64,000 nt of DNA from Blattamonas nauphoetae (lineage: Eukaryota; Preaxostyla; Oxymonadida): contig JARBJD010000304.1 of NCBI GenBank assembly GCA_033064195.1, positions 24,450 to 88,449 on the forward strand, read 5' to 3'. Of the stretch, positions 22,401 through 45,822 are shown in pieces. Numbering within the stretch: position 1 is the stretch's first letter; the number at the start of each line of letters is the position of its first letter. The notes beneath the pieces were generated by a model, which was given only the letters and a program-made list of their open reading frames with translations, did not search any database and was not told the DNA's origin. The translations under genes and the position numbers were made by a program.

Positions 22401-25010
22401 TTCGTTCATTGAGACAAGTGGACAGGAGGACGAGGAAGGAATGAGAGTAATCGAGCGAAGTGTCAGACTGGCACCAGCCTCCACCTCGAGTTCGGCTGTC
22501 AACTGTGTTGTGTGAGGACGAGGCGATTCGTCAGACGTCACGTGCACAGTTTCTGTTCCGTTTCCGACAATCTCGACGTCGGTTTGGATGGAAAGAATTG
22601 CGTTTTCGGTGAAAGGTCCATCGGAAAGTGAGAGGATTGTTGAACTGTCTGGCACAAGTGACTGAATTGCTTGTCGAAGTTTGTCGTTTGTCTCCACTGG
22701 ATTCCCATCTTCATCTGCATCCACCTTCAGTTTGATCTCATCCTTTGCTTTTGGAGTCCGAATGACTTCGAAGAGAGGGCATTCTGTGATTGTGTTTCTG
22801 TCAGTTGTCACTCCGATCGACCGAGTCGACGTGCAGTTGATCACCGAAGACTCGTTGAGGAATGATCGACCGGCCTGGATGAATTCGAAATCAGCCTTTG
22901 TTGTCTGTTCGAGCTCAAATCGACAGTCTTCCAAAAGAACTGATCCATTCGTCGTGAAGACAAGGAAATTCGAGTATGGTCCGAAGACAGTGCAGAAAGT
23001 GGATGAAAACGCGTTGAAAGCTGACTCGAATAATTTGAACAGCGTTGAACCTGAACGTGACAGTTTGCAGTCGTTCATTGTGCACGTGTCCAGAGTGAGA
23101 GATGTCTTATAAGAACACTGCATCAACTCATCTTTATGAAAGTCACAACAATCGAACAGGCAGCTCTGGAAGATCACGAAACAAGGTCCCCTCGTCTCGA
23201 GGAGACGATCTGAATTTGGAATGGGGAGTGTGTGGAAGACGGTTCCGAGAAAACATAAGTTGGGTGAGTCTTTCGTGGATTGGATTCCGAACTGGTCGAA
23301 CGTGGAATCGACAAAGAGGAGAGGGTCGTGCGGAGTGACAACATTATACTCGACAACCAACGAACCGTCTTCAAGATTCGATCGAGTCACCACGAGTGGT
23401 TGGGCACCCGAAACTGAAGAGAGACTGAAGAGCGATGCTCTGTTGACGATTTCGGTGTCAGAGACGCTCAATCCGCCAGATCCGAAGTCACAGTAGCGGA
23501 TGTTGAGAGAAGAGCCACTTGAATTTCCATCTCCCTGAAGACGGCAGTTGCTGATGGTGACATGTGAGGATGTGTCTCTCAGATTGTGAATGGCGACGAA
23601 CCCTCCGTTTTCCTGACGGGATTTCCCTCCGGAAAGAGTGAAGTTGGAGTCAACAATGGAGTGAGATGCTGATGTGTACGAAATCCCAACCCCTCCACCA
23701 AATTGGTCTCTGTTCACTTCATTTCCGGGATACCAATCTTTGAAGGAACACGACGAGACGAAAAGAGAGGATCGGATGAATGTGAAGTCTAATCCTTTCA
23801 AAAGAATGCATCCCCCAGAAACGGCCCAATAGGAGTCTGGGACAGTCACTGAGCAGTTGATGAAGGAACAATTATGAACAGTGAGAGATGTTGAATCTGT
23901 GGTGAGGATCAACGCTGATCCGCCATCGCGGTTCACGCTTGGGTTGTAGTTCATGTTCTGGAAGGTGCAGTTGTCGAATGTTGTGGTGGTTGTGATGTTC
24001 AGGCGAGAGTGGTTCAGCTTGACATCGAATGTTTTGTTTTTGACGAGATCATCGTTGGAGGAGAGTGAGGAAGGGTGGAGATGAGAGGAGACAGGTCGCT
24101 CCTCGGATGATGTGCTGCACCATCTGAATGTCGTGTTCGAGCACAGCACGCTCCCTCCGCTGTTCATGTCCCGCACTGTCGATCCGCTCAGATGGTTGTT
24201 GCTCCCCCAAACCGAGCTCCCAATCATTTGTTGACGAAACGAAGGCGAGGCAGAAGTGACAGAACCAGGAAGCGACGAAACATTGCGAAACGAAATTCCG
24301 ATGAATGCTGTTGTGACACCAGAAAACATCAAAAATTCCGTTCGGTCCGCTCCTTCCCCCACTCCAATCCCATCTTGTCCAATGACATGCTGGTTCTCCA
24401 CATTGCTGTTCAACATTGACAGGAAGATCCGTTCATGTCCCTCCAATCCCCGAAAATCTGACAAAATTGCCCCCACTCTGCCTGATTTTGAGTGGATCGC
24501 ACAGCTGGTGAGTGTGATTGTCGTGTCCAGGTCCGAGAACTCCTCCATCCTCTCGACTGTCATCAATGGTCCCTCACCACTTCGAATGAACTCAATGTGC
24601 GATGCACGAACAGTGGATGAACAGATCGAGGCGAATAACACTTCTGAGTTTGTCGTTTTGTGATCGAGTTCCATTCTCACTTGGGAGAGAGAAAATGTTG
24701 AATTTCTGGCAGTGAACAGGCGAAATTGATAAGATTGAAGATTTGACCGTTGTTGAGAAAGTGAGAATTGTTCATTAGAACTTGGCGATTCGAGAATGAT
24801 GGACGTGTCGTTCTGCCCATTCAACGACAGAACCGACGATATCACTTCGAAATTCAAACATTTTACTTCGGTGTTAGGCAGTTGGAGAATATAATCAGCA
24901 GCACAATATTCGTCCTTTCGAACAAACGACCGAAGAAAATCTGTGAGTCCAACCGTTGCAGATGGTGGCAATACGCATGATATCGACATAAAAATGAGGA
25001 GGATGCACAT
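16410..25010 (-). CDS. 2,866-aa beta-helix transmembrane protein with pseudokinase tail
   Basis: This is an intact single-exon gene ending in TGA. I start it at the ATG at 25010, because the 21 codons further upstream begin only with TTG and the ATG opens directly into a hydrophobic signal peptide (MCILLIFMSISCVLPP). The ectodomain of about 2,500 residues consists of repeated short Ser/Asn/Cys-rich beta strands typical of right-handed parallel beta-helix (pectin-lyase-fold) proteins, with many N-glycosylation-type NxS/T sites. One membrane span lies near residues 2531-2557, followed by basic RRQQKKKEEE. The cytosolic tail keeps kinase C-lobe landmarks (RWSAPEQ near residue 2738, FRLGLVLWELETG, ERPTLSDL) but has no recognisable glycine loop, VAIK lysine, HRD or DFG. 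I infer a surface recognition or adhesion protein with a non-catalytic signalling tail. A giant transposon lies 128 bp upstream of the start. Confidence 0.88.
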   Translation of the reverse strand: MCILLIFMSISCVLPPSATVGLTDFLRSFVRKDEYCAADYILQLPNTEVKCLNFEVISSVLSLNGQNDTSIILESPSSNEQFSLSQQRSNLQSYQFRLFTARNSTFSLSQVRMELDHKTTNSEVLFASICSSTVRASHIEFIRSGEGPLMTVERMEEFSDLDTTITLTSCAIHSKSGRVGAILSDFRGLEGHERIFLSMLNSNVENQHVIGQDGIGVGEGADRTEFLMFSGVTTAFIGISFRNVSSLPGSVTSASPSFRQQMIGSSVWGSNNHLSGSTVRDMNSGGSVLCSNTTFRWCSTSSEERPVSSHLHPSSLSSNDDLVKNKTFDVKLNHSRLNITTTTTFDNCTFQNMNYNPSVNRDGGSALILTTDSTSLTVHNCSFINCSVTVPDSYWAVSGGCILLKGLDFTFIRSSLFVSSCSFKDWYPGNEVNRDQFGGGVGISYTSASHSIVDSNFTLSGGKSRQENGGFVAIHNLRDTSSHVTISNCRLQGDGNSSGSSLNIRYCDFGSGGLSVSDTEIVNRASLFSLSSVSGAQPLVVTRSNLEDGSLVVEYNVVTPHDPLLFVDSTFDQFGIQSTKDSPNLCFLGTVFHTLPIPNSDRLLETRGPCFVIFQSCLFDCCDFHKDELMQCSYKTSLTLDTCTMNDCKLSRSGSTLFKLFESAFNAFSSTFCTVFGPYSNFLVFTTNGSVLLEDCRFELEQTTKADFEFIQAGRSFLNESSVINCTSTRSIGVTTDRNTITECPLFEVIRTPKAKDEIKLKVDADEDGNPVETNDKLRQAIQSLVPDSSTILSLSDGPFTENAILSIQTDVEIVGNGTETVHVTSDESPRPHTTQLTAELEVEAGASLTLRSITLIPSSSSCPLVSMNEEGNLSLKTIVVYAKQDRTKELFCLSAGTIRFFHSRFSFIAGSSALIIVSGNGSMFLKDTVFLSTSRTHPPTPPIDGSLQSGSCVEGRTSGSISIQFCKFGGCSSNGRAGAIDIVSTNTTSSLSMEGCQFDQNSAGTGLNEAERGDDVVLKKFSDDQLNLNFTTIESFSKLPFLVNDSHPHVPPPHTLHFAPNGLDMPLAWSSPNMLHESRLSDLTLQFLLGSRLHNNVHTAIITSLTYNDTMTPFSLKNASVSASLNSGCTITITQPSNEIFCCLLNASLLLSSLDLSVSELKNTAFSIDQASSISLNYVGITFTNKTLTHSFVDSAGRSTLFWRVTIPSGLTLNGVSFVQHIRSANDGNFTWKTTPVSSVSLTTQPFLHLEGMSTFQIEHDSYYQITNINSKCDGSFLFAKQSNVTLSTLKVSSCSAQRGGFAFFTSCNVTIRRSEFSSCSAQHGGVLFVELDEDNQLSSEYSSAFYSLIKSSRATATDENGVDVGRGGAICVKGTTTAKTPVNLVCVAFENNTAAFGNDVFVEESVLGEEGPDRLKGCGGESRSDWPHLEVEGITKEHNKDEWTRIATFIAYPEININPRFGSNDSQCRFSFSDCKTLEYAFRYLQLFYPNGTVYPRSVVVKENATFNSMSFEDENMKLRGGQNIKLNTTGPEGSSMFIILGDSRLTMQSFKFHHHGNHTFVSVMSSESWLEMVSCEVTIQSGTYSQSLVSSVGSGLSLSSFRFNKDYNSPLVTFTVPLISFHPTPSQVGGLGSAPFSITNSSFRNLTLLNSSIIVVETSGDVIFQNLNFTAVQKESERGIFLYLKGDNFKRQIIPENWDSSFQSDQHATHLGEDASLAENHKWRNGSIVYWLFSPSDVIVVNATDSSAVDHPNCGSAKFKCTTLDAALESASLNSLEVITLSSPSSLERVMTVEGTRTVRSSDTTQRKVAVALDSGISVKEGELTFHSIQFTSASSSAFSNGETVHTGSLFVVHSGSLSLNSCSLSSFTLASCPLISHTSGSLSLISCELRSIERVSGKGSILSTTMTSEMILTMDGVQLYSMPCSSESPAVLLNFSSITLPSPFPSFSLTNLRFEGFRLEPKDHYVEIVGRNISNFICEGDTRFSGSYSNDSNVDYLWSVDEDLNLSVSLLFYLLPQEGPVRVKRRGFDIDRCGYRNVWCSSVERAISRTTDRVLSEIVILGDSDLSLAVSLSNNVSLTKGEEQAILHASSDGSLMTTPHRSLLMEELSISLPQTQTAEAVIIVAPSGSATLNTIVVRSTGGSDATLVCVTGGRADITDLVMESEMKENTNLMEIIDGKVSVDTLRAENGIALNSSIVWMKAGIVSVSEMSIVGVSSISGCLIHASGTSARVKDIALSHISFSSAPFLFSSLESCSLSNVSITDFSSGALIEGTDVKSLDIESSRFSRPTKIKPEPNEEMSDICWWKDSHITLDNCSSAFHSVEMKHLPQGAVSIVGGELTLTSCTFIDNSPSNADFPSLCRNVLCSDGKVSIETIGGGDGLSSPHHWISTNDCSVEKEDKILPAPFFVPTLSSSKSTSKFDTTQEMYEIVLKGETLIPCGLSLEVFERLALSETEFSEGDHIFVELDPSEVKSWKEDTIELSLHQSSLAELNIKHDLHCRVLFGENGKTDSFSLTGLKGNMSQAGRVVSIVIPIVCSVILLLIFLIVVLVLVCRRQQKKKEEEKPKAMSELDECQIEVKDEEMDVNSTIRPLLNTSDVTLHPSSLNMISNGVDQGQQEVSSFRQQFIEHVDALKCEGEPAVIRVDAKKTLYSALHFEKALALPKTEIRRQLVVGLNRLVQHNPFSDVLTQLSSHWILVDSSGSVCLKLDRNFNETDLTAHQIANRKKMREEDCRWSAPEQIDEEDRGHNKDEKEPHAVPFDPLKASVFRLGLVLWELETGLVPFGELDAVNASRQVKGGQVPLISNWEDTSLASIVEECLSFDPNERPTLSDLQKHFSSSSTNPDPSPIQQQPIASITVIG

Positions 25011-25138
25011 GGAGGGAAGTAGAATTGTTGGGAAGGGGATTCTCGCCCACGCTAAGGAAATGGAGATGTTCAAACACAGAATGGTTTGATCGATCCCAAG
25101 TTCACTCTTTCATGGATCGTCTCGGTCTAAGTTTATTG

Positions 25139-25300
25139 GGCATAATCCGACCCCGTGCCCCCCTCCGGTATTTTGACAGCAGCTCTGTAACATTGCACTT
25201 CGCAGTGATTTTAGAAGCATACATCTATTTGAGACCGGGTTTTCGACTTACAGACCAAATCTTAAAAATTACTGCTCGATCAAACTCACCACATGAAAAC
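25139..25300 (+). repeat. Left 162-bp terminal inverted repeat of the giant element
   Basis: This is the inverse of 38477-38638 with about four mismatches. It contains a G/C-run block near the tip (CCCCGTGCCCCCCTCCGG). The outer neighbour is the target duplicate GTTTATTG at 25131-25138. Confidence 0.93.
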
Positions 25301-25344
25301 ACACCATTACACAAATTTCTAGTACCAACAATCACAAATATGAA

Positions 25345-26637
25345 TCATGAGATGATACAATGAAACAGAGCAAGAATAAAGTTGAGAATATCGACGTGAC
25401 GAAAAATGAAGTAAGGCGGTATCGGGAACAACAGGCTGAGGATAGAAAAGCGATCACGAACAAGAGGAATGCACAAAATGACGTGAATTCCTGTTTTATC
25501 GCTTGAAACACGGAAGGCGTGTCCATACAGATGACGTCCGAGTTGTGCCTCCAAATCGGTGTTTCCTCCGGCTCGAACAATCATAGCTTGGATGCAGTGC
25601 GTTCCGAATGGATGGAGACAGATTTCGAAGGCTGTAGATGCTGTTAAGAGGTTGCCAAATTGGCGGAGAAGATCTTTGCTCGAAAGGTGGATTAAGATCT
25701 GCATGGTAAAGTGTCCAAAGCGATCCGAACATCAAAACACAAATTTCGGCCAAATTTCGGCGAAACTCAGTTGGAGAGTGAGCGAGAGGAGCGAAACGGA
25801 TTCCGCTGACATTCCCACACGCGCTGCGAGAATGACCATGTCTGCCCGCGTCCCACGACCGTCTTTGTCCTGTCCTTCGATGCTTGTGAGTACTTCTTGA
25901 TAAAATCGGCACCATTGCTGGGAAGAGAGGAGTGTTTCGGTTTGATCAACAACTGCTGAAAAAGAACGGAATGGGTCTTGAATATCAACGTCAATTGGTG
26001 TCCGAAGAGCGTTGAAGTTGTGGGCGTTCACAGGGTGAAGAATGGAGATCGCTGGAGAGGTGTAGTTCGGAGTGACATGAAATGATGTTTGTTTCAGAAT
26101 AACGAGCGGATGAAATTGGGGGATTTGTTGCGGAGGGTGCACAAAAGGGACTTGAAGGGTATTTTTTGGATGCGGCCAAGATATTGTGTTTGGAGCTGAC
26201 GAGAAAGAGGGTGTGAACTGTGGAGAGGAGATTTGCAGTTTAGAGTGAGAAGTGTCTTGCGGGCAATATGGTGTTGTGAATTTGGATCCTTGTTGGGGTG
26301 GGAAAACATATTTGGGAGTGGATAAATCATGCAAATGACTAGATTGAAAGTGGGGATGGGATGTCGAAGGGGACGCTATAGCAAGCTTTGGGTGATGCGA
26401 TCCCGTCTTGATTCGAGGAACAAAACGTTTTACAACAGTTGGTGCAGTTCCTGTCGGTTCCGATGTCGATAGGCTTGGCAAAGGAACAATGGTTGGTTGA
26501 GGATTGGCGAGTGTTGTTGGCTGAATTTGATGGAGTGTTGGAGTCCTGTTTCGTTCACCATTGCCCATATCGTCGGTTGGATGTGGAAATATTTGTGTTG
26601 TTTCAGAGTCACTCTCCATTTTGCTTGAAGAAGACAT
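25345..26637 (-). pseudogene. Pumilio (Puf) repeat protein, in-frame TGA
   Basis: Reading from 26637 downward, the first 301 codons begin Ser/Pro/Thr/His-rich, as in the low-complexity N-terminal parts of Puf RNA-binding proteins, and then become helical. After a TGA at 25734-25732 the same frame continues with clear Puf repeats: DRFGHFTMQILI, then HPFGTHCIQAMI, then DKTGIHVILCI. In the family, such repeats bind one RNA base each through the aromatic/small/polar triplet on helix 2. Only about three repeats are visible, whereas a full Puf domain has eight, so the gene is truncated or continues past an intron I cannot place. The TGA suggests decay, although a short intron over it is possible. 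It lies just inside the left end of the giant element. Confidence 0.55.
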
Positions 26638-26941
26638 CGGTGAAGTGTCCGTGAACGTCGCTCTCCTGTGGACTCATGATCATCAAACAGTGGTGTACCA
26701 GCATCTGAAAAACGATATTGGGAACCGCAAGTGTCATTGTCATTAATTTGATTCGGGCTGGCTGAGAAAGATGGGTTGACCGATTTGCGAGGGATGACCT
26801 GTTGTTTGTGCGTGTGGTCGGTCTGGATCAACTGTGTCGCTTGAGAATATTCTCGGTGTCAGGCTGAGAGTTGATAATGTCTGCACATGGTCATAATCTT
26901 GTTGACATGGGGAGATTAATCCGTTAATTAAGGCATCGATA

Positions 26942-28100
26942 TCATATGTTTTCGTGATGGAGTTGAAGAATGGGGGCTCGGAGGATTGGTCTGATAGAGA
27001 AGACTGGACATGTGAGCCTGAACACTGTTGAGGATAACCGGGAAAATGGTATCCATGTGGGATGTCTTGCCTTGGTAGAGGACTGCTGGCTCAGAAGCTG
27101 CCAGGAATGATATTTTCTAGTCAAAGAACACACCTCAGGATCCCAGCCTGAACAATGTGCACGGGAGCGATGATTCGATGTGCCTGTTGGTGGGGCTGAT
27201 GCATTTGCAGATACACACCAAATTGGTACTGTTGGGCAAAGAAGCAGTACGCGTGCTGTATTAGCGCTTCGGACACTTCTACAGGAACCAGATGACAACT
27301 CCCAGGTTGGTGACACCGACTTTGATGAATACGTCCTGATTTGTGAGATGGATCGCGACGAGATATAAGAGTATTGTTCGCCGATCATGTTGGGAGAGAA
27401 AGCGTGGGTGTCTTCACCTGGAAGGGTGTTTGGCGGTTGATAATCTCCGTTCTGTAAGTTGGCTTCCAGTTGGAACGATCTGCGTTGAACAGGAAGTAGA
27501 GTGTATGACTGCTGGTTGTCCAGTTGTGGGGCTTATTGTTTTAGGTGAGATGGAGACTGTTTGATTTGATGTGACGGAAAATGGGATCGGTGGGAACCTG
27601 CTCGTTGTTTGGGCTGAAGTGATAGACTGAAAAGAAGAAAATGAGGGAATGATGGATGCTGAATACGATTGGTTGTCCGTAGACGTCGAATCCTGGTGGA
27701 TGGGTGCAGTTGGCAGCATGTTTCACGTTTTTGAACACCCAACCTTGATACTCCTTCCACGCATCATGTATTTCTGAGAACAAAGAAGATGAAGCAATGA
27801 CAGTGAGAGATGAGGCTGAAACAGACCTTGAATTGTGCGGTGCGAAATGATAAGCAGAGTTGTTGTATTGAACGGTAGAATCTGGTGTTATTCCCACGTT
27901 CGTTCTGAACTGTTGATAAACGAGACAGAAAGCTAGACATACAAATGAGGTGATTTCGGTTGTCCAATTGTACGAATCCTGGAGTAACATTTGCGACAAG
28001 GATGAGCATAAGAGTTCAAAAATGGATGAGGAAGATGATTGACGAAGATGGTCAACGAAAGATTGTATTTCTTGTGACGTATGATTGATTGAATGGTGGT
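26942..28100 (-). pseudogene. Upstream exons or relics of the Puf-type gene
   Basis: Protein-like segments on the minus strand point to a multi-exon gene upstream of the Puf repeats. One segment (about 28080-27827) is a helical region containing SQEIQSFVDHLRQSSSSIF. It is followed by a 53-bp pyrimidine-rich GT...CAG stretch (27826-27774) that looks like a short spliceosomal intron. Another segment (27719-27414) is Ser/Thr/Gln/Pro-rich, and a third (about 27245-27140) is Gln/His-rich. The frames do not join without gaps, so I cannot give a gene model. The order (helical, then low-complexity, then Puf) would suit one large RNA-binding protein. Confidence 0.35.
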
Positions 28101-28729
28101 AGACAGTTCTGGAAGTTCATCCCGCAACCCCAGAATCGCTTGAGGCAGAGAAAAAAATAGGTTGTTTCCTTTCTCATCAGCTGTGTTTTAGCATCGTCAA
28201 AGTGTGTTCGGTTTGAATCTTTTGATTTCTAGCTGACTCAGGAGCTTTTACAGACAAATGATGCGGCATGAAGGAAATGCCAAGGAAGGCAACTACCAAT
28301 TACTGTGCAGAGAGTGTTCTGAATGGTTTGGAGTGTGCGCAATACAGTTACTTGTTGTACTTTTTTCTTCGATTTCGGTCTTGCCTAGTGCTGTTGTGAC
28401 CACTTCATACGCTATCGTCAGTTTCGATTCTTTCGTCGAATGAGAATCTCCGATTTGCGGCTGTATCCATTGAACGAGGGAAACAGGAGGGTGAGTGTTG
28501 TGTGAGGCAGGTCCGAATTGTTGAAGGATGATAAGGTTCGTTAGGACACATGAGGGAATTGCGTTGATTGGGATGATTGAGTTGAATGTGGTCAGCGCTT
28601 GTGAGAACGTTTATCGGACAAGGCTGAGGTATTGTGAAGGGGATGAAGAAAGGGGATCTTGAAAAAGCAGTGAAAGCGCTGGATATTTTGGTGGTGGAGT
28701 GCGTTGAGCATCAGGTGGGTCGATCTAAC

Positions 28730-29416
28730 TCAATGGATGAGGCGTGTCCAGATCTCAGGTATTGAGATGAAGAGCAGAAACTTCTGACATGAGCGATGCT
28801 TTGACTGCTTCGCATCTCCAAACATGGTTCGGAGCGTGAACAGGACAGGTTTCACATCAATTTCGTTCACGTGTGGACCACAAGCTTCCACACTTTGATA
28901 AATCGAGGCAACTGGCTTGGTCCAGCAGCATGCGAAGAGTTCTTTTAAGAAGTCCGCAATCATGTTGAAGGGTATGCTGCGGACATTCAAAACGCGATCG
29001 CCAAGTTTGATCAATCTCAGATCCCATGTTTACGCTGATCTGGGGAGATAGTCGCTGAGGTCGGACAGAAGCAAGAGAATAGATCGCATACCAGGCTCAG
29101 CAGGATCCATTTTCTCTTGTTTTGACTGGGTCATCTGGAAGGAGTGGACGGAGTTCAGCTTCTCATATGCATTTCTTCTCGTGTCGATCGCATTCGAGTG
29201 TGTGGAGGGTGTGATGGAGAACACGTTGCACGAATTATCCACCAAAATTTTGAGATATGTCGACAGATGCGACCGAAAGTTTGTCGGCTGGTTCGTCAGG
29301 CAAGTGGACCCAAAGAAGTTTGTTTTGCTGTGATGGTACGTGCAGTCCTTCAGTACGGAAGGGATGAGAGTGAACATTTGATGAAAGTTGGAGAATATCA
29401 GCTGTCCGTTTCTCAC
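28730..29416 (-). pseudogene. Unrecognised reading frame with one internal TAA
   Basis: Two minus-strand frames (29416-29030 and 29014-28730) lie in the same phase, separated by a single TAA. Together they would encode about 229 residues with helical segments such as MIADFLKELFACCW. A plus-strand frame over 29144-29476 is also open, and I cannot decide which strand was coding. I do not recognise a family. The neighbouring stretches 28101-28729 and 29417-29903 show nothing convincing. Confidence 0.2.
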
Positions 29417-29903
29417 TGGACAGATCCGCTTCGATTCAGGTGTTCAGCACGCGCCCGGCCTTTCCCATATGTCTAGCCTGTAGAGACGAGAACGGTGAGA
29501 AGACGTTGTCGATTGTGATCTGAAAATAATTGAGGTTCGCCATTGGCAGTTGTTGGATGGTCGTCGATAAAAAAGAGTTCCGGGTGGTGGAAAAGCAAAT
29601 TCAGGAGTTGGGGTTTGACGAAAACATCGACCGATCGAGAAGTCCTTGCAGTGGAATTTTTACTGACAGAGGAAGAGGACGTGTCGTCGATGATATGTTC
29701 AAAAGAAAGAAACGTTGCGAGTGTGAACGTTGTGATTGTGTTGTTAAAGAAAGAATGGCACAGAGAATGACTAGATGAGTGACTAAATCAGTGACGTGTG
29801 GTTTGGTGGTGTAAATGCTTCGACTCGTGGATGAGAATGTGGGATGAAGAGTTGTCTAAATCAATGTGAAGAATGTATGAAAACAAAGAGTGAAACGAGA
29901 GAT

Positions 29904-30920
29904 CTATGCGAAATCAGACGCAGACGCGCCATCACCAGCTCCATCTGATCCATCCTCCATGATACTGTCCTGCTGGATTTCCCGGAGTTCGGGGATCTCG
30001 TCCGAGGAGATGTCATCCTCTTCCTCTCTATCTGATGCATCTGGTTTGTAATGTAGTAACAGTCCGACCATCTCCTCGAATGTCAATAGCGAATGGCGTT
30101 GTACCAGCCATAGAGCTAAATAATCAACTAAAAATTGTTTTCTTACCCCATAACGAGGTAAGAAACCTCTTAACTGCGACCACATACTTTCTACATGATT
30201 GGTGCATGCCCCGGTCTCGGGGTCGACGAAATGCCGTTTGTGGCAGACGGTTTGATGTGTATATCCTAGATCCTTTAAACAGTCGTACGCTTTCCATTCA
30301 TCACTTAAGATGAGAGTTCCGGGTCGAATTTTTTGCTGAATAATAGGAATTAGAGTTGCTTTGTTCTGATTTCGGACTATCGTTACAAAACTCCTGCCCT
30401 TTCTTCCTCCTTCATTTCTCTCAATTCCACCAAATATCCATATCTGTTTCTTTGCTCTCCCCCTATGATATTTTTGTCTTCTCCAGATTGCCTCATCGAT
30501 TTCTACCACTCGCCCTTCCCCACCCAACATTTCTTGCTTTTCGTTCCAGACTTGAACACAGACGCACCGAATCAGACTCCGCCAATACCCAATGGTGTCT
30601 TCCCCAATATGCAAAAGAACCGAGGTGTGCCGAGCTGTCACACCAGTCCAGAGAAATAAGAGGATTGCGAGAATTTGACCGATTTCAAGGTTTGTATCTT
30701 GAAATGTTGTCCCAGTTAGGACGGAACGTGTTCTGGGGCATCCCGAGCATTTCCAAAACGGATTTCGGCCAGCCCTGTGTGTTAATCGTGTTGGAATTCT
30801 GCATTTACCACAAACGTGAGTGTTTGGGACGTATCGTGAAAGAAACCATTCACAAGCCGCTTCAGAATTGAGAAAAATGGGAAGATAAGAAGATTGAGGA
30901 GCCTCCCGATCAATTTCCAT
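29904..30920 (-). CDS. IS1595/ISXO2-like (Merlin) DDE transposase
   Basis: This intact 338-aa frame has an ATG start and a TAG stop. It opens with a zinc-ribbon-like module (C37-x2-C40 and C58-x2-C61, in HVCGKC and FWKCSGC) typical of the IS1595 group's N terminus. A ribonuclease-H-fold catalytic region follows: EIDEAIW places D142, LSDEWKAY places D207, and NHVESMWSQLRGFLPR places E244, the expected DDE triad and spacing. The C terminus is acidic. The enzyme should excise and insert DNA by cut-and-paste, recognising the element's terminal repeats. It sits roughly centrally in the 13.5-kb unit, and I found no closer inverted repeats around it, which argues that the giant unit's ends are its substrate. 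It is the only undamaged gene I can see within the element. Confidence 0.9.
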   Translation of the reverse strand: MEIDREAPQSSYLPIFLNSEAACEWFLSRYVPNTHVCGKCRIPTRLTHRAGRNPFWKCSGCPRTRSVLTGTTFQDTNLEIGQILAILLFLWTGVTARHTSVLLHIGEDTIGYWRSLIRCVCVQVWNEKQEMLGGEGRVVEIDEAIWRRQKYHRGRAKKQIWIFGGIERNEGGRKGRSFVTIVRNQNKATLIPIIQQKIRPGTLILSDEWKAYDCLKDLGYTHQTVCHKRHFVDPETGACTNHVESMWSQLRGFLPRYGVRKQFLVDYLALWLVQRHSLLTFEEMVGLLLHYKPDASDREEEDDISSDEIPELREIQQDSIMEDGSDGAGDGASASDFA

Positions 30921-33389
30921 GAGGATCGACTTGAAGAGAAAAAAAGAGTATGGTCGACCCCATGATAAAAAAACCTACGTCCAAACATGGCTCTATTCGA
31001 TTCGAATTCAACATGAAAGTCTTGAGCAGACCTTAGAAACAGTCTGATCACTCGGCGAAAGGTGTGATCAGCTGAACAGACCAAACGAATTTTGGGTCTG
31101 ATCAACCTCCTATTTTGGAGATTCAAGAACTGACTCATTTTTTTGTCAGAACTCATTCAATCGATCATTTCATCACAAGGAATTCCACCGGAATTGCCTC
31201 TATTGTTTGTGAGATCGTGAAATTGGCGGGTAAAAAGAGAGAATTGACCAAAACAGCGCTAAATCGAACTCTTTGATTCCTGTTTCCGCTTCACTTGTTC
31301 TCATGGATTACGAACAATTGAGAACCAAGTGAACTGAAGTGTGCAGCGATCTCGACGTTGTGATCAAAAAAGCTGTGATCAATCAGATCTGTATCAGGAG
31401 TCTGACGATGGTGACAAGTGGGTGAGACTGTTTGAAATCAGAGAATAGTTCTTCCAGCAATTTTCGAATCTCGTCTCATCACATAGTCGAGACGGACAAT
31501 ATCCATTCTCTTAGATTCGCTTGAGACATCATTCATCGTTGTTTTCGTGAAATAAGACAAACCATTGACAAGCGGGATTCGTCTTGTTTTATAATTCTGA
31601 TTCTCGAACATTTCTATGATCTCAACAATTCTCTTCAGACACCATTCAACGTCGTTCTCGAGACATGAGACTAAACTCTGACTCACTTTCCTCGACACAG
31701 ATGGAATCGACCGTCCATTGTTTTGAGAAATGAGACAGAACACGACACTTTTTCAGAGTTCGAATTATTTCTGAGATGTTGGAAAACCCCCTTTTTTGTC
31801 AAAACCCTATCTCTAGACAAGGGGGGCATAATTTTCGACATCATTCAAAAATGGACTGTCGTGGATAGTAAACCAACTTGATCACCCTTGACATTGCTCT
31901 AGAAATGATATCAGAAAAGGTGTTCAATCAGGTCATAGACCACTTTGAGAGGATACTAATTATGAATGGATGAACTCGAACATCTGAATAATGTTAAATA
32001 GCAAACCCAAATACAAATTATGGAAACTCCATCCCGTAGTTTTTAGCATTATTTGCTAGTCTTAGTGGTGGGTGATTGAAAACCTTCGGATTTTTCCTTT
32101 ACAATCACGTTTTTCTGATCGGTAAATTCCACTGTCGGCGTTTTCATTCTGATTCACATTTCTAAGGATAAACAGGATTCGTCCTAATCCACAGAAAACC
32201 ACAATCTCGCCTTCAAAAGTTCGGAGACCCGAAAATACCATTCTCCTATAATGATTGAGAAACGAATCGTCTTTCGTCTCAGGTTGGTGAAAGATTTGTT
32301 TGAACAGCATGATGGTGATTGATGATCGAGCCGTGGAAATAGAGGTCTGTTTCGTTTCTTGACGGGTCTTCAATTGGGTGTGAACTTTTCATGTCAGAAA
32401 AAAGTTCGAAGACAGAACTTCGAATCTCGCCTCATCAAACAGCAGAGATATTCATTGTCCATTCTCAAAGATGAGTTTGGAGACACCATTCAACGTCATT
32501 CTCTTGTAAACAGGCCAGAGACTGACACAAATCGACTGCCAAAAGTGAAAACAAGAGATCACACTCCATCCAATTCTGGAAGTTTGTTGGGTTTTATTCC
32601 ATTCTGGTTGTCACACGGAGTCACAGAGAGTTTCTTGTCTTGAGCTAGAGAAGTTGTATAGGACTGGTGAATGATATGCAGGAAGAAAGAACGCGGTTTC
32701 TACAAAAGAGAGAAGCAACAATGCACGGCGTGTCATTCATCGGTCATTTTCTCTGAGACCAGAGAGGACCTTGCTTGTGAGATTGTGGAAAATGTGATAG
32801 TGTCCAAAAATGCCTCCTTCAAGAGAACAACACGAGTAGGGACTTCAAAGTGGATGTGATTCTCATCGAACATCAAAACAAAGACAGATAAGAGAGTTTT
32901 TAGAACGCCAAATGGTTCTTTAGAATAGTTTAAACTGAATCTGAACTGAACAGACGCAGTTAGCATCTCAAGGTCATTTCTGAATTTCAGTTTCAATTAT
33001 GCATCCGATCAACACACAAAATAATAAAAGCTCATTCTCATCATTCTGATGATTAAAGAGCAATATAGGCTGTCGAGAAGACATTTTTCATTGTCTCGCC
33101 TGACTCACTTGTTTGTTTGAGCACATCAATCTCGATTGGACGAGGTTGAACCACACCAAAGCCCGAACCACCAAATTGCGTTCTATCATATGGACATGTT
33201 CACATTCGATATGCCTTTATTGATTCGTTCTAGCCAGCCATTGACACTCAATCACAGATGTGAACAGCATCAAACCTGCCTCTCGAAAATGGAGGACACT
33301 GTGTTGATGGTGTAGGGAGGAAAGTCATGTTTTTGCATCTGTATCCTTAGAGCAACCAGAGTCGGTGTCTTTCCATCTTTCATCATGTT
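30921..33389. other. Gene-free interior of the giant element
   Basis: No supportable gene is present. A hairpin-like inverted G/C run lies at about 31785-31829 (ccccc...gacaagggggg). Two diverged direct copies of a roughly 150-bp sequence lie around 31465-31690 and 32415-32540, sharing blocks such as 'agacaccattcaacgtc'. The open frames here are short and unlike proteins. Confidence 0.5.
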
Positions 33390-34914
33390 TTGTTTATCTC
33401 CATTTGTCCTCTTCTTTCGTTATCTCTCACAGCGGATGATAGACTCATCGCTGATCTTGTGAATCAAGTGGACCCACCTGCAATCAGAAGCACATTATTC
33501 ACACATGTTTGCATCTGTGAAGGGAACAGAAAGGAATTGAGTGATGAGTCCCGTTCTTATACCTTCGGGCTCTCATCAATCATCCAGTCGCGAAGATCAT
33601 CCCCAGTCCAACATGATAGACCTTCGGCAGAAAGAGAATGGAGGTGGAACAACCAGAACTTGGAAGAAGTGAGAGAGGACAGAAGGAGGGGACAAGTCTG
33701 TGGATTACAGAAACCCCAAACAAGAAACTATGGGTGGCAGTTGCTTTGATCTCAAGCTGTTGAAGCCAATGAGGATGGGAAATGACTATCAATGAAGAAA
33801 TGGTGCCCCCACTCATGACTGCCCCTCCTGTGCCTCTCGGCCTACGGATGGTGTCGCTGTTTGGAGACTAGCAATCAACAAAATAATCAGATCTAACCAA
33901 AGCAGACAATGTGATCGCCACCGCAGTGGGCGACGCACAAATTTAAGAACAAAGCAACACGAGTGGTTACATTGCACAGGCGTACGCTTGGATCCATTTT
34001 GTTGTGTCGAGGCACTACATCTTCCAAGATCCCAACTCCCCTGTCCTGTTTTCACGAACAAACAAGTCATTCAAGCTCATTCCAAGCAAATTAAGCACAA
34101 TGTCGGCACAGGGTCACTTGGAGTCCCCTTTCCTGGCGTTCACATCTCACGAAATCAACTGACTGTATCAGCTACTGGGTTTGCTGGGGATCGAATGGGT
34201 CATCCGATTCATCAACATGAACATGATTCCTCGGTGTCTGGAACAGGTACATCAGTATCTGGAGATGAACGCTCCGATCTTCACCACGATGCACGATCGG
34301 AAGATTCAGACAGAAAGGACTTCAATGATGTGAACAGACAGGTGATGGGAAGGGAATCCTCTGAACCTGCTCAGCCACTCACGATTCTGGGAGTTATGGT
34401 GACAGTTTGCGACATGTTCTCGTTGTTGCTGAGAGGAGTGCTTCAAGAACAACACAGCCTCCTGACTCGCGCAATTGAAGCATTGTGTGGCCAAATCACT
34501 GAGAAGTCGTCGGACTCAGTAGATTCTGGTACTATTCTTGAATTCTCTCCTCTTTGGGTCGTTGCCCGAATCTCCAAAATCCCCACGAGCCCCGCGACTA
34601 GATTCTGTATCCATCGTTCATCTCGGTCTTCCCGTCGCTGGTGGGACGGTTCGACAACGAAACGTTGGCATATAACCTGCATCCTTCCTTCAACACACTT
34701 CTGTGGTCGGAAACTTGGAACACAGCTTGTCGCTGATCATGCGAGTGCACAACGCAGCACAGAATGCACAGTGGGGCGGGAGTGTGCAGTTCATGAGAGA
34801 AGAATGGAGGAGAGCCAACGAACAAGCATGATTTGCAGAATTGGAGGACGATTAGCGAGCTGTCGTTTCTTCTGTTTCTTACTGCACACCTTTCCTCCCA
34901 TCACCGCTCCATAA
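33390..34914 (+). pseudogene. Frameshifted helical-protein gene, part 1
   Basis: Protein-like segments occur in all three frames. One is helical after a TGA at 34160-34162 (LYQLLGLLGIEWVIRFINMN). Another frame at about 34340-34530 contains ILGVMVTVCDMFSLLLRGVL. A third at about 34615-34730 contains FPSLVGRFDNETLAYNL. The first frame returns at 34728-34828 (SLSLIMRVHNAAQNAQWGG) and is ended by another TGA at 34829. This is what a large alpha-helical protein gene looks like after indels and nonsense changes, unless unplaced introns explain some shifts. I do not recognise the family. The 308-aa frame from 33988 is only partly real coding sequence. Confidence 0.35.
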
Positions 34915-34972
34915 ACTCTCTTTCAGCGTCACTGATACGTCAGCTTCTCCACTCAATCAGTGATTCTTACAG

Positions 34973-36191
34973 ATGAGGGATCGTCGAGCGGAAGAGGACA
35001 CCGTGATGGACAATAAGAAGAATCGCCAAGATCTGATATTGAGGACACTATTCAAACAGTTTTTTCTCTTTTTGAGTTTCATGTCTGTCTTTCTATTCTC
35101 AGATCTTGTCGACAATCACATCGACGCAAACGGCGTTCTCACAATCGGGACTCTCACTCGACCGGTATTATGACACACTTAGCGATGTTCAAGACACGCT
35201 TGGTGATGTTATTGAGGAACAAACAAAAGAATCAGAGGAGATGACCGTTCAAATTGAAAAGTTGGGAAAGATGCTGCTGAGTGTGGATAAGAAACTGGAA
35301 GAGAAACCAGATGACACGGAATTGCTGGGGTTGAAGGAGTAGATGCGTTTGTTGAACCAACTCCGCACATTGGAGAAGGCCAAAATCATCTAATTATTCT
35401 GTCATTTATCCGCTGTCTCAGCAAAACTATCTTCCTCTTTTGCAAAAATTGCATTCGAATGTGAATCGACAATGCTTGAATGCGCTCGAAATGTTGAATG
35501 TTTGTGCTTTTCCTGTGAATCGTTTTCAGGCAGAAAATGTGGAGATCCAAGATCTTGTCAACCAAAAGGCGGAAGACGCTGAGACCAAACAAACAGCAGA
35601 GCCCCCGCAGGATGCATCGGATGCGAACGACAGTCAGACCCCGAAGCGTCTTGATAGTGAGCATTCTTCGAAGGACACTTCGGCTGAACCAGAATCGGGT
35701 CCTGCGGTCTTTGCTCAACATTCCGGCCCCTCTTCCCATTCGTCCAGCCACAGCAGCTCTCCCGTCTTCACTCGGCGTCCTTCTCTTCCTGGATCTGGGA
35801 CGCCCACGATCCTCCTGCCTGTGAATGCGGATTTGCATGGCTCATCTTCAAGCCAGTTCTCGCCGTCTGCATCGTCGGGGAGTCTGAGGTCGTTGTCGCA
35901 GACTTTGGATCCGAATGACGAACAAGCAGTGCAGTTGAAGGAGCTGAAGGAAAGAACGGTGTTTCTGGAGAAGTAGCTTCGGATCTATGCAGAGAGAGTG
36001 CGATGGATGGAAGAAAGCAAGAAGCAAGGAGAGCGTGAATTGATGACGCTGAAAGAAGAAATTAGCGAAGCAAACCGACGCGACCGAGAATCGACCAGAA
36101 TCATCGGGAAGCTGATTGAGGTGGTGCGAACGGGGCAAGATCTGTGTAGAAAGAAAGTTGTCCACATGAAATCAACAATGATCCGTGAATA
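34973..36191 (+). pseudogene. Coiled-coil gene remnant with in-frame TAGs
   Basis: An exon-like start (34973-35060) is followed by a pyrimidine-rich stretch ending in ttctcag at 35101. Coiled-coil coding then runs to 35393 (QIEKLGKMLLSVDKKLEEK) with a TAG at 35339-35341. A second block from 35440 is Ser/Pro-rich, then returns to coiled coil, with a TAG at 35974-35976 between FLEK and LRIYAERV, and ends at a TAG at 36190-36192 after MIRE. All three TAGs fall where glutamine would fit a coiled coil, so they could be CAG-to-TAG nonsense changes. The gene is probably continuous with the helical fragments on either side. Confidence 0.4.
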
Positions 36192-36192
36192 G

Positions 36193-36806
36193 AAGTTCCG
36201 AACGTTGTTGTTCAGACAGAGATTTGCGAATGAAGGTCCTGATCCAATCTCACCATTTCACGTATCTCCTCGGATCAATCATGGCATTCTCACCCTTCCT
36301 GGAACAGATGACTCAATCCATCTTGTCTTCTCCAGCTGCGATTGCCTGCATCGACAGCCTTCTCTTTTTCGAAACTGAACAAATGACGAACCAGCTCATC
36401 GGGACTCTCTTGGACGAACTGCCTGTCTCGCTGAAGAAAGGGACAGCTGTTCAACACCTATACAAGTTGGTGTTTGGACACCTGCGCACAGAAGGGCTCT
36501 CCGATGTACTTGATCTGCATGGCAGAGGATGCTCTCTCAGAACATGACATCCGGTTGAACAGACTCAACACAATTCTGAGATTGGTCGAGAAATGGATCA
36601 AAATGGCCAAAACACTTGCCAAACAGCCCCCACCACAGTCAACTCCACGTCCGAGCCCGTCGGAACGAAAAGCACTTCAAACGCCATTTTTGGCGATCGC
36701 GGGAACTGCACCCGTGACTATCCCTCCAACCCTCAAAGCTGAGCAAGAAATGATCACACTGGAAGCAAATCAACCCCTCGAACCACCCATTAGATGGCCA
36801 AATTGA
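36193..36806 (+). pseudogene. Helical gene remnant, frameshifted
   Basis: Helical protein sequence (SPFLEQMTQSILSSPAAIA and on to GHLRTEGLSDVL) runs to about 36510. It then shifts to a second frame (AEDALSEHDIRLNRLNTILR), followed by a Pro-rich linker. The overlap of the two frames near 36474-36547 marks a likely frameshift. This is presumably the same decayed gene as the coiled-coil segment upstream. No family is recognised. Confidence 0.35.
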
Positions 36807-36998
36807 CCGACTTCTCTCCCTTTTTTCTCTCGAAAATGGGATTTCAGTCGAACCGACTAAAATACAAGAAGAAGTCAATGTTGAGCACGCTCACAGCAAA
36901 AAAGAAGAGAAAGAACGAAAAGAGCGAGAAAACATGCAAAATCATCTTATCCAAGTTCAGAAAGCAATGGAAACTGATTTCTCTGGCTCGACGTTATA

Positions 36999-38067
36999 TT
37001 TTCTAGGTCGCCTCATCTTCAGCATCGGCCAGTCTGTCGGCCTCACCCCACACACCATGCTAACCTCGCTCTCTCACTCCGAAGTAAAGGGAGAGGATGG
37101 AGAAGCATCTCTGTCGCCCATCGCAGCGACGATCTTGTCTGACCTGACCTCCCCAACCCTTCTCGATCTCACTGGCGGCGTTGTATTCACTGCAGTGTGC
37201 TCCAAGCGGTTCGTATGCAGTGTGTGGAGCTGAAGGGGAGAGTGGCGGTGAGACTGCATCACTCCCTGCGGCAACGATGACGCCTTTAGTGAAGAAGACA
37301 GAGAAAGAGATGGAAGAGAAGAAGAAGGGGAAGGAGGGAAACAAGGAAGAGAAGGCCCTTGTTGTTCTGAGAAGGAAGAGGGTTCCCGACTGGTCGGATG
37401 GGCAGAACCCGAAAACCCATTGGAAGGCTGGCAGAAAGGACTCGTCGTTTGGGACTACCCGTTCGAAGTCTATTTGGAAGCATCGGCGCCTCAACCTCCA
37501 TCCACTTCTGATCCAGACGAGTCTGATCTCTTCTCTTATCAACTCGATCCCACTCCAACTCACGTCATCTCCAATCCCATCACCATCTCCCTTCACGTCA
37601 TCTTCAGACCACCTCAATCTCTCGCCCCAACTCCAATACATTCTCCCATCTTTCCCTTCTTCATTTCCAACGTTGTCACTTCCTCTGTTCGAATTTACAT
37701 TCATCTCGTCTCTGCTTCAATTCATCTCATCAACTTTCTTTGGCGAACCAGCACATTCGCAACCGATCCGCAACTCCCCTCGCTTCGACCATCCACCCAA
37801 TCCTTCATGTTTGGGCCGTCTTCACTTCATCTCATCGTGGCATTCTTCCATCGACTCGCCTCTGCCTTGTCTACTCTTCTTCTGACAATCACTTCGCCCA
37901 CATTCGTTGGAGTTGAGATCGCAGCAGACGACGCAAACGACAGGTCTCTCTCCGAACAAGAAAACGAGAAGAAAGGGAAGATTCGAAAAAGAAGAAGGAT
38001 GCAAAGAAGGAGCTGGAAGCAAACAAACTGGAAGCATCGAAAACTCTCAACAAGGACAAGCGAGTGA
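36999..38067 (+). pseudogene. Low-complexity gene remnant at the right end of the giant element
   Basis: Short coding-like stretches are present: 36999-37233, a Lys/Glu-rich block at 37270-37380, and a 215-codon frame at 37420-38067 that starts acidic-hydrophobic, becomes Ser/Pro-rich and ends very basic (KKGKIRKRRRMQRRSWK). A competing frame (37181-37885) overlaps it. Neither matches a family I know. The remaining 400 bp up to the right terminal repeat hold nothing I can support. Confidence 0.25.
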
Positions 38068-38476
38068 CACGGAAGGACCGCAGTTTGGGATTGTCTGAAA
38101 TAGCAAAAGATCTCCTCAATCATGTCTTAAAATTCCAAAAAAGAAACAAAAATGCATTGAAATAAACACCTATAGACCGTTTTCTCCATAGTAGGAGTCT
38201 TGATCACTTGTTTTCGGCATCGTTGTCTCGAAGAAAAGATCGCGCCTTATTCTCTGTGAAATAGTGTCTCACCCTTGTATCACGCAACAGACGCTTCTCT
38301 CTGTTGAAATATTGAAGAGAAAATGAACAAAAGATCAGGAGACACTTCATTTCTTGATTGATGGAGGATTTAAGTCATCACACCGTTTGTGGAGCTTGTG
38401 ACCAGTATGAGATCATTTTACTCTAAAAATACCATTCATGGATTCTTGTTTTCCTTGATTGAAAAGAGAAGGATGA

Positions 38477-38638
38477 GTTTTCATGTGATAAGTTTGATCG
38501 AACAGTAATTTTTAAGATTTGGTCTGTAAGTCGAAAACCCGGTCTCAAATAGATGTATGCTTCTAAAATCACTGCGAAGTGCAATGTTACAGAGCTGCTG
38601 TCAAAATACCGGAGGGGGGCACGGGGTAGGATTATGCC
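38477..38638 (-). repeat. Right 162-bp terminal inverted repeat of the giant element
   Basis: This is the inverse of 25139-25300. It ends GGATTATGCC and is followed immediately by the target duplicate GTTTATTG at 38639-38646. The plus strand carries clustered G runs (ggaggggggcacgggg) that might fold. Confidence 0.93.
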
Positions 38639-38682
38639 GTTTATTGTGTTTTCTTCTTCCTTATGGACGAATATTTTCTCTA

Positions 38683-40929
38683 AATAGACCCAAACTGAAT
38701 GAAGTATGGTATTTTAAAACAAGTGGGTATATTTGAATAGAACTATGGGAAATTTGAAATAACTAAGTTATTTTGAAATACGCCACTTATTTCAGAAAGG
38801 CCAAACTTATTTTAAATAAGGCACCATAACATTTTTTGAACTCCCTTTCGTCATTATCTAATTCAAAGATATCTCAAAAGCGTACCAGAAGTGACAAAAT
38901 GTGATGAGAACGATGGAAAATGTTGAAATGTTCGAAATTAATCACTTTGGTGGCATCACTTCAGATCCGCCCCACTTCACTTTTCATTCCTTCTGAGTCT
39001 TTTTCTAACAGGAATGGACACTGTTCTCTGTCATGTTTTGATCAGCTACAGATTGCACATATGCAGGACACATGAAAAAAGAAAAACTGTACAGCGAAAT
39101 GAGAAATCGTGAAAAATAGAACTGTTCTCCAACCACGACGCTCCTTCGGAATGAATGAGGTCAATCTGGTGATCAGAATGGTCAACTTTCAGAGTTTGAT
39201 GTCCACATGGACTGTCAGCAGATGACCAGCCTATTCACAATGAGCACTGAGCAGGTTTGGTGTGAGATGTGATGGCTTTGCATGGGCAGCAGAGTGTTTG
39301 ATTTGACGACGTATTTGTTCTCCATCGGAGCCTTCACGCCCAACTATTCTTTGAGGCCATCGTCCTCCGATGGTTGGAACAGTTGAGGAATTGTTCTAAA
39401 AGCGGTGTCCTGCAAACCAACCAACACTTTGTCGTCGTCGTCATCTCCTCCACTCAGCCCTTCCTCGCTCGACACAAGATCGTTCGAATTGTGTCTTTTC
39501 TTCTTCTCCGATTTTTCCTGTTCGAGCAGTTCCTTCTGTTCTCGCTCGAATTCTTCATCCTCCAGCGACCTCGTTTTGTGCCACCATTTGTGAAGTCTTC
39601 TCTCCAACTGCTTCCGCTGCCTCTTCGCCTTGATCGCCTGCACAAGCTCCCTCTGTCTGTGTCTGTTTCTTGTCTTCGACATCTCTTTCCGACTCCGTCT
39701 TCTGATTGGCTGAGTCAGTCAATTCGATTGACCTGAGCAATGTTTCCAGACGAGGATCGTGACAATGGACGTGTTTGTGTTGTGCGAGTGGTTTGTTGTC
39801 AGTGGGAGGCAATGACATTGTTATGGCGTGAAGAGAGATAAGATCAGTGATATATTCGGTGGACATGGAAGTGGCAGAGGGTGACCATCGCTCTCTGACA
39901 AACTGGACAGCTTCAGCTCCTTCCCTGACTCGATCTGCCATTGTGAAGAGAAGCAAAGTGTCGGATCCAACAGCCTCCGAATCGGAAGAAGGGCTTTGTC
40001 GACTGAGCTCTTCATACAATCGAATTCTGGGACGTGGTGATCGAATGGTGTGGCTCCCTCGCTCGGCGGCGGTGAAGAGGAATCTATCAGAGCAATTGAG
40101 AGACCAGACACCGCCCGTGCTCCCATCAACCCGCTCTCCGCCGACCTGGTTCTGGTGATGAGATGCTACGTGTAGAATGTCCCAAGTGATTCCGATGAAG
40201 ATCCTCGACGTTGCAATGTCCAGCAGATGAGTGAACTGTGGAAGTGGGGCGATGGGATGTGTGAGGTTGGGAGAGATCCACACATCTTCTGGCTCTGAAC
40301 CAGTTTTGTAAGGCACCTCTGCTCGGAAGAATTCAGCGTTGTCTGTCTTATTTTTTGTGATTGAGATTGGACGATGCATAAATGATTGCCTGTTCAGATG
40401 TCTGGGGGCTAAATTCAGGATTGAACACTGTGTTTCTTCTTGCTATGAGAGATCAAACATTTCTGAAAGGATTGATTGAAAGAGGAGACCAACTCACGAT
40501 ATTATGGTAAGATTACGGAGTCAATGTCATCGTTTCTTAACATATTGGTTGAGTCTCTCGGAGATCAGCTGTCGGTAATGAAAAAGGAAAAAATGAATGG
40601 GATGGTCAACTGATCGTCCTTGAAACAAAAAAAACACGCTTTTTCCCGTACACACACTGTCTGAGAATGTTTATAAATGGATCTCAGGCGAATTATAAGT
40701 GAAAACTGGGAAAAATGTTTTGTTGTGGGTCTTAATTTGAAAGAACTTGGTTATTTTGAAAGAACTGTGTTATTTTGAAAGAGCTCTTTCGATTCAATTA
40801 GGATCGTACCCTATTCAAATAGAAGTCACTTCATTCAGATTTATCGACCGTATATTTAAAATAACCCCCGTAAATTTACATCAACCTTAACATTTCAAAA
40901 AACCATACTTCATTCGGTTTGGGTCTATT
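38683..40929. mobile_element. 2.2-kb inverted-repeat-bounded unit carrying a gene
   Basis: The left end AATAGACCCAAACTGAATGA (from 38683) is inverted at the right end (to 40929) with one mismatch in the first 28 bp. Similarity fades over the next 10 bp. Both sub-terminal regions are AT-rich with repeated 'ttattttgaaa' or its complement. The right boundary falls where the native leader of the helical gene resumes ('tcattgtttc', shared with 45772), which supports an insertion. A clean target duplication is not obvious, although ttctc occurs near both ends. No transposase is seen, and the interior carries a minus-strand gene. Confidence 0.55.
39344..40379 (-). CDS. Unrecognised gene: soluble N-terminal region, basic coil, acidic tail
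   Basis: A 274-codon frame (40379-39555, ATG start) overlaps a 112-codon frame (39682-39344). The second is the more protein-like at the C terminus: Arg/Lys-rich helix (AIKAKRQRKQLERRLHKWW), Glu/Lys coiled coil, then a poly-Asp acidic stretch and stop. The upstream frame supplies plausible sequence as far as about 39690. I suspect one gene joined by a short intron or a frameshift in the overlap, but cannot choose the junction. The basic-plus-acidic architecture suits a nuclear or RNA-associated protein, and that is only inference. Confidence 0.4.
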
Positions 40930-42066: not shown

Positions 42067-42329
42067 AAACAGATCTGAGCCATCGATCGTTTCGGCATGT
42101 TTCTGGCTTCCTTTGGACAATACTCTTTCTTCACTGCCATTTTCGCATCCCCCATCTTTCCCGCGTCTTTTCATCTCTCCAATCTTGATTTCACGCCGAT
42201 GCATCAACTCATCCACCAGTCGTCTCTCACAATCACCTGGATCGTCTCGCTATTCAGGATGCGATGTTTTATTCTTCGTTTTTGGACAATTCTTTCATCG
42301 AAGTGATATTGTTTCAGACTTTTATTTTA

Positions 42330-42341
42330 ACCCATAACGAG
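42330..42341 (+). promoter_or_regulatory. ACCCATAACGAG start-proximal motif 2
   Basis: The motif lies 24 bases before the ATG at 42366. The preceding 90 bp (from about 42238) are closely matched at 45698-45786, so the whole promoter region was duplicated with the gene. Confidence 0.55.
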
Positions 42342-42365
42342 TGGTTGAACTCTGAATCCAAAAGA

Positions 42366-45786: not shown

Positions 45787-45798
45787 ACCCATAACGAG
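45787..45798 (+). promoter_or_regulatory. ACCCATAACGAG start-proximal motif 3
   Basis: The motif lies 24 bases before the ATG at 45823, with the same upstream context as motif 2. Confidence 0.55.
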
Positions 45799-45822
45799 TG
45801 ATTGAACTCCGAATCCAAACAA

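Follow-up and report, generated by a model that had tools for sequence, protein, structure and literature searches.

We describe a 13.5-kb unit in the genome of Blattamonas nauphoetae (contig JARBJD010000304.1, positions 24,450 to 88,449) which is very probably a gene-capturing Merlin (IS1595-related) transposon, autonomous in appearance and with a mosaic core and ends; its transposition we infer from the sequence. The whole stretch of 64,000 nucleotides analysed is called the window. C-numbers denote contigs of the same genome, of which 88.31 Mb in 837 contigs were searched. The window is C229:24450-88449, and the copy within it is the C229 copy. Because captured host gene fragments lie in the unit together with a transposase of its own, we read it as a gene-capturing Merlin that retains its transposase. 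The features of the unit are listed below; pieces called captured are so read from their alignment to host loci.

25131..25138, no strand: left target-site duplication GTTTATTG; a single copy stands at a paralogous empty site on C76
25139..25300, plus strand: left terminal inverted repeat (TIR), starting GGCATAATCC; 12 mismatches to C452 within 25167-25291
25467..27014, minus strand: fragment captured from a Puf-type gene, interrupted by one in-frame stop; 88-92% to its host counterpart on C200
27072..28335, no strand: stretch common to the copies that hold it, 98-99% between copies
28336..29574, minus strand: captured Nckap1 piece B; host counterpart on C201, ~75%; stops and frameshifts
28687..33800, no strand: diverged core of the window copy (transposase gene and surroundings); 72-96% to C452 where well aligned
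29904..30920, minus strand: Merlin/IS1595 DDE (Asp-Asp-Glu) transposase, 338 aa; D142, D207, E244; putative zinc ribbon C37, C40, C58, C61
33806..34711, plus strand: captured Nckap1 piece A; host counterpart on C201, 82%; stops and frameshifts
35052..36520, plus strand: captured piece of a multicopy host sequence (C825, C103, C257, C320 and others); 93-95% over the main 1.1-kb block
36512..38112, plus strand: captured piece of a C154 host sequence, 81-96%; the C154 open frame has at least 1,266 codons
38477..38638, minus strand: right TIR; 15 mismatches to C452 from 38474 on
38639..38646, no strand: right target-site duplication GTTTATTG, identical to the left one

The first-pass annotation of this DNA had noted 162-bp inverted repeats with an identical 8-bp sequence just outside both. 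This is confirmed: the repeats agree at 158 of 162 positions, the arms reach 170 nt at 96% identity, and GTTTATTG flanks the unit on both sides. The first 20 bases of the end, with up to four mismatches, are found at just two places in the window, namely the two unit ends. The ends are thus not those of two separate small elements with their own duplications, a possibility we rejected. No relics of ends were found inside three copies at E 0.05. At 13.5 kb, the unit is about 8-10 times as long as its small Merlin relatives in the same genome.

The transposase matches DDE_Tnp_IS1595 (PF12762) with E 2.7e-21 and 76.6 bits (cut-off 27), and the NCBIfam profile transpos_IS1595 (NF033547) with E 4.3e-30 and 105 bits (cut-off 75). 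With the open 338-aa frame and the DDE triad, these two matches bear out the intact IS1595-type transposase first proposed inside the unit. D142, D207 and E244 are kept in every row that covers the position (18 aligned rows). Between the C229 and C22 copies, nonsynonymous divergence (dN) is 0.086 and synonymous divergence (dS) is 0.464; the ratio of 0.19 indicates that the transposase is under constraint. Along the gene, dS between these copies is 0.14-0.22 over codons 1-200 and above 1.1 beyond, and this jump suggests that the core is itself patchy. The putative zinc ribbon lies at 30531-30920 (minus strand). Its C37, C40 and C58 are each kept in 15 of 15 covering rows and C61 in 13 of 16, seven of the rows being copies of the same element. 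The profile Zn_Tnp_IS1595 (PF12760) stays below cut-off against the transposase (E 0.3), and Merlin is stated to be without this domain in a part of PMC8101967.

A genome search with the left end, which the earlier annotation had recommended for finding further copies, was scored for the best 40 of 101 candidates. Fifteen of these match at 88-100% on nine contigs, and 25 are weaker. A facing pair of ends, about 12-21 kb apart, is present on six contigs and a single end on three. By their flanks, the copies occupy six insertion sites: C229; C22; C2; C452, which is one site with C234 (flanks 99.7%); C717, whose left flank equals C337 and right flank C38 (99.7-99.9%); and C66. Perfect and mutually different 8-bp duplications are found at four of the six sites (GTTTATTG, GAGCTTCC, AGAATATC and AAGTATAG), so that chance is no issue for the ends. 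Read whole, the C452 and C717 copies have main cargo blocks that are 97-99% identical to the window copy, and short blocks common to them and the window copy (53 and 62 bp) are at 92-95%. The sister-copy segments compared are 98.4-100% alike outside the TIRs and 95-100% within them; one C66 entry for piece B (~70%), apparently a match to piece A, is excluded. The C22 copy spans 21 kb, with ~8 kb extra.

The unit, including its cargo, stands at several unrelated sites with its own duplications. Sister copies with the same cargo and their own 8-bp duplications support the initial proposal that the 13.5-kb unit moved whole. Of the four duplication-bearing sites tested, two (C229 and C22) have empty sites elsewhere. 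The C22 empty site is found at three places at 98-99%. For C229, the predicted empty site with a single GTTTATTG was recovered on C76 as a paralogous one. On the suggested check of whether ends and transposase co-occur, the eight best transposase matches (66-100%) lie within seven of the nine end-bearing contigs. C38 has transposase matches at rows 24 and 28 of the match list and C66 has none.

We considered whether the unit is instead a non-autonomous element that is moved by another Merlin, with a transposase that is a relic or was itself captured. The transposase frame is broken in most other copies. Of 123 transposase matches, 108 are found elsewhere than in these copies, and the same genome also has small Merlins of 1.4-1.7 kb. 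However, the transposases of C229 and C22 are both open, keep D, D and E and differ from each other with a dN/dS of 0.19, and the transposase core and the TIRs diverge together. We consider this explanation unlikely. The small Merlins were found by a strict scan of 1.5 kb on either side of each locus, in which larger elements would be missed; six of 30 loci have ends and an 8-bp duplication, at 1.41-1.69 kb, and two of the six look like one insertion on two contigs.

The cargo was initially described as Puf-repeat, coiled-coil and helical genes. That description has to be revised: the pieces are fragments of host genes that bear stops or frameshifts, which are seen in all four kinds when read in the host frames. 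Judged by alignment, these fragments were captured from host loci and have counterparts elsewhere in the genome. The C200 Puf frame matches PF00806 above cut-off (E 3.7e-7), and the Puf exon of the element itself is below it (E 0.0067); all three copies compared have the Puf stop at the same codon. The two Nckap1 pieces are inverted to each other on either side of the transposase, and their counterpart on C201 is an open frame of 1,206 codons (PF09735, E 2.5e-25). Within piece B, 28336-28686 is 98-99% identical to the sister copies, where the remainder is diverged or missing. The three parts of C825 that match 35052-36520 lie ~1.6 kb apart. For 27072-28335, no host counterpart was found beyond weak matches of up to ~170 bp at 74-80%. 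The end tip is missing from four of five donor stretches (L076-L079). The fifth, L075, covers the same C200 locus as L078 and has a 412-bp miniature inverted-repeat transposable element (MITE) at 397-808, ~2 kb from the Puf match.

The C200 Puf gene also contains a 3.8-kb insertion (L075:3600-7407) with ends CAGGGCTTTCCA, an 8-bp duplication CTGTGGAG and an internal tandem repeat, which we take to be hAT-like. Our element is without this insert. We rejected a second capture event as its origin; more likely it entered the host Puf gene afterwards.

The persistence of the same pieces in sister copies (97-99%) could mean that the cargo genes are functional regulators or helpers of the element, held under selection as in other large transposons, and the multicopy-sequence piece does keep a 267-codon frame with a single stop. 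This is quite improbable in view of the pattern of substitution, and because each of the four kinds of piece is broken by stops or frameshifts. The cargo of C229 and C452 differs at 52 places, distributed 21:13:18 over the codon positions, with a ratio of nonsynonymous to synonymous differences per site (pN/pS) of ~0.80. Codons were counted in ten blocks against C452, and in eight of those ten against the donors, some blocks overlapping by a few codons. C229 has moreover lost five stretches (63-400 bp) still present in C452, and sister copies are without other parts of the cargo. From the pN/pS of 0.80, the cargo is under no clear constraint; it is decayed and probably hitch-hiking. Intron loss or passage through RNA was rejected for the five stretches, as GT-AG occurs on neither strand in any placement (0/7, 0/15, 0/12, 0/10 and 0/2). 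The joins overlap by 6, 14, 11, 9 and 1 bp. Together, these two observations favour deletion between short direct repeats, at least in four of the stretches.

The divergence of the pieces from the host loci suggests an order of capture. Two blocks of Nckap1 piece A give a dS of 0.42 and 0.65; the values are lower for Puf (0.15), C825 (0.10) and C154 (0.07-0.16). In Nckap1 piece B (dS 0.29, dN 0.30), 41 of 74 differences fall at second codon positions; this excess indicates a slipped frame, and the piece was not used for dating. As the Nckap1 pieces are the most diverged from the host and the outer pieces less so, we tentatively suggest that the cargo grew from the inside outwards, with the oldest pieces inside and the youngest outside.

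The core and the ends have a different history from the cargo, as far as this can be read from aligned copies. The first-pass annotation had noted neither this mosaic, which was unexpected, nor the host counterparts of the cargo. Between C229 and C452, the arms are 97-99.5% identical, the TIRs ~90%, and the core 72-96% or unalignable; some stretches beside the transposase within 28687-33800 are not common to C452. The cargo divergence is about 1-3%. Near 36.5-37.5 kb, where the two copies have different deletions, their global alignment is unreliable, and local alignment there gives 97% blocks. The edges of the diverged ends are sharp. On the left, the 12 mismatches within 25167-25291 are followed by one up to 25700; on the right, the 15 from 38474 on compare with 4 in 38200-38473. 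The closely matching arms stop at 28687, inside piece B, and resume at 33800, at the start of piece A. Synonymous differences amount to 14.5 of 789 in the cargo (against C452) and 79 of 228 in the transposase (against C22), with a Fisher p of 3e-42 on rounded counts. Against C452, for codons 1-270 of the transposase only, they are 49 of 182 (p 3e-26 against the cargo).

The simplest reading of this mosaic would be that the core and the ends were exchanged with a diverged lineage in which the older Nckap1 pieces were already present; either lineage may have been the recipient. It seems that the enzyme and its matching ends were swapped for another set and the cargo was kept. Without any exchange, a far higher rate of evolution in the TIRs and the transposase than in the cargo would have to account for the pattern. 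Rapid co-evolution of ends and transposase is conceivable, but the excess is synonymous (dS 0.46 overall, above 1.1 in the C-terminal part and ~0.02 in the cargo), whole stretches beside the transposase are not common to the copies, and the sister copies, with the C66 entry mentioned above set aside, are 98.4-100% alike in cargo and core both, outside the TIRs; we regard this explanation as very improbable. An assembly join or segmental duplication with no transposon is scarcely credible: duplicate contigs do represent one site (C452/C234; C717/C337/C38), but four sites have differing flanks and differing perfect 8-bp duplications, two have single-duplication empty sites, and the structure recurs on other contigs with other flanks.

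Several observations weigh against the interpretation of the unit as an autonomous-looking, gene-capturing Merlin with exchanged core and ends. Among the copies read, the whole transposase frame is present only in the window copy and in C22. Transposase fragments of 71-85% identity lie outside the units (C146, C68, C336, C2:497872 and others), which implies that more, older family members exist. The C2 copy is without matching duplications and its right end is two bases short, and C66 shows one end only. The C76 empty site is short as well as paralogous (70 bp, 83%). The best 40 of 279 candidates, a list in which a repeat from the C717 flank takes up most places, include no spanning empty site for either C452 or C717. 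It may be that the host loci are paralogues and not the true donors, which keeps the age order tentative. Finally, the mosaic is drawn mainly from one copy compared with all others.

In the mechanism we propose for the gene-capturing Merlin, the 338-aa transposase would bind the 162-bp ends, excise the 13.5-kb unit and insert it by cut-and-paste with an 8-bp duplication. Over time, at least four host loci (Puf-type, Nckap1, multicopy sequence and C154 frame) would have contributed pieces to the element, perhaps by gap repair or by re-mobilisation of nearby insertions, as has been suggested for Pack-TYPE elements in a part of PMC8903248. Some stretches would have been lost by deletion between short direct repeats. 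The window copy would be a recombinant in which the core and both TIRs, the parts that need to fit each other, trace to a long-diverged lineage. The exchange probably ran through the Nckap1 pieces flanking the core, with conversion of the TIRs in addition. It is possible, and we hold it only tentatively, that the Merlins of this genome both grow by stepwise capture and replace both ends and the transposase, their specificity set, as a unit and retain kilobases of cargo, with cargo passing between diverged lineages.

The Merlin superfamily comprises eukaryotic relatives of the IS1595/IS1016 insertion sequences. Bacterial elements of the IS1595 family use the same transposase family and are prokaryotic; some with passenger genes exist. 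Merlin TIRs are 24-462 bp long, start with GG and come with an 8- or 9-bp target duplication, according to a part of PMC8101967, which also gives more than 100 Merlin copies in the oxymonad Monocercomonoides. The 162-bp TIRs are within this range, and the earlier view that such long TIRs are atypical of Merlin does not stand. The element resembles Merlin in its DDE_Tnp_IS1595 transposase with D, D and E, in the 8-bp duplication (perfect at four of six sites) and in its GG-starting GGCATAATCC ends of 162-170 bp. It differs in size, with about 12-21 kb between its ends against 1.4-1.7 kb for the small Merlins of the same genome, and in its captured host gene pieces, putative zinc ribbon and mosaic structure.

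Gene capture is known for other transposon superfamilies (PMC8903248 and PMC2528002, in part). Pack-TYPE elements (Pack-MULE, Pack-CACTA, Pack-hAT, Pack-PIF and Pack-Mariner) are defined as non-autonomous and found in plants in PMC8903248, and like our element they hold host gene pieces from several loci between their ends and move them along. Our element carries a transposase, is a Merlin and has a protist host. Since the C229 transposase is open and keeps D, D and E, which would depart from non-autonomy, we call the element Pack-TYPE-like and do not class it as Pack-TYPE. The word Merlin is absent from the main text of PMC8903248. The transduplicating elements of grapevine (Mutator, CACTA, PIF and hAT) are similar in that captured fragments are common to several copies, some with a transposase, but they belong to other superfamilies and another host, and no core or end exchange is described there (PMC2528002, in part). 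No gene-capturing Merlin is named in the titles and abstract openings listed by searches of open-licence literature; one may have been described elsewhere.

The first 15 of the 25 weaker end matches are all 412-bp elements with related ends, and 14 of these 15 have a perfect 8-bp duplication. In a search with one such MITE, scored for the best 40 of 196 candidates, each of the 40 alignments covers 389 or more of the 412 bases, and six reach the top score. Fifteen of the 40 are 100% alike when rounded, so that the 412-bp MITE was probably active recently. Around the unit, the window holds another inverted-repeat element with 37-bp arms at 38683-40929, 36 bp to the right of the unit's duplication; its left part has 21 scored genomic places at 89-100%. 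At 41077-46998 there is a repeated family of related frames, with relatives near Nckap1 on C201 (71-73%) and no significant Pfam match for the one frame scanned. Just left of the unit, an open frame of 2,887 aa (16410-25073, minus strand) has, by eye, a membrane segment and a kinase-like end.

With this element, cut-and-paste gene capture would extend to a protist and to the Merlin superfamily, in a unit that still carries its transposase. The mosaic would be a natural case in which an enzyme and the ends it reads were exchanged and the cargo was retained. Copies within one genome would thus offer a test of how transposase and ends co-evolve and of how the cargo grows step by step.

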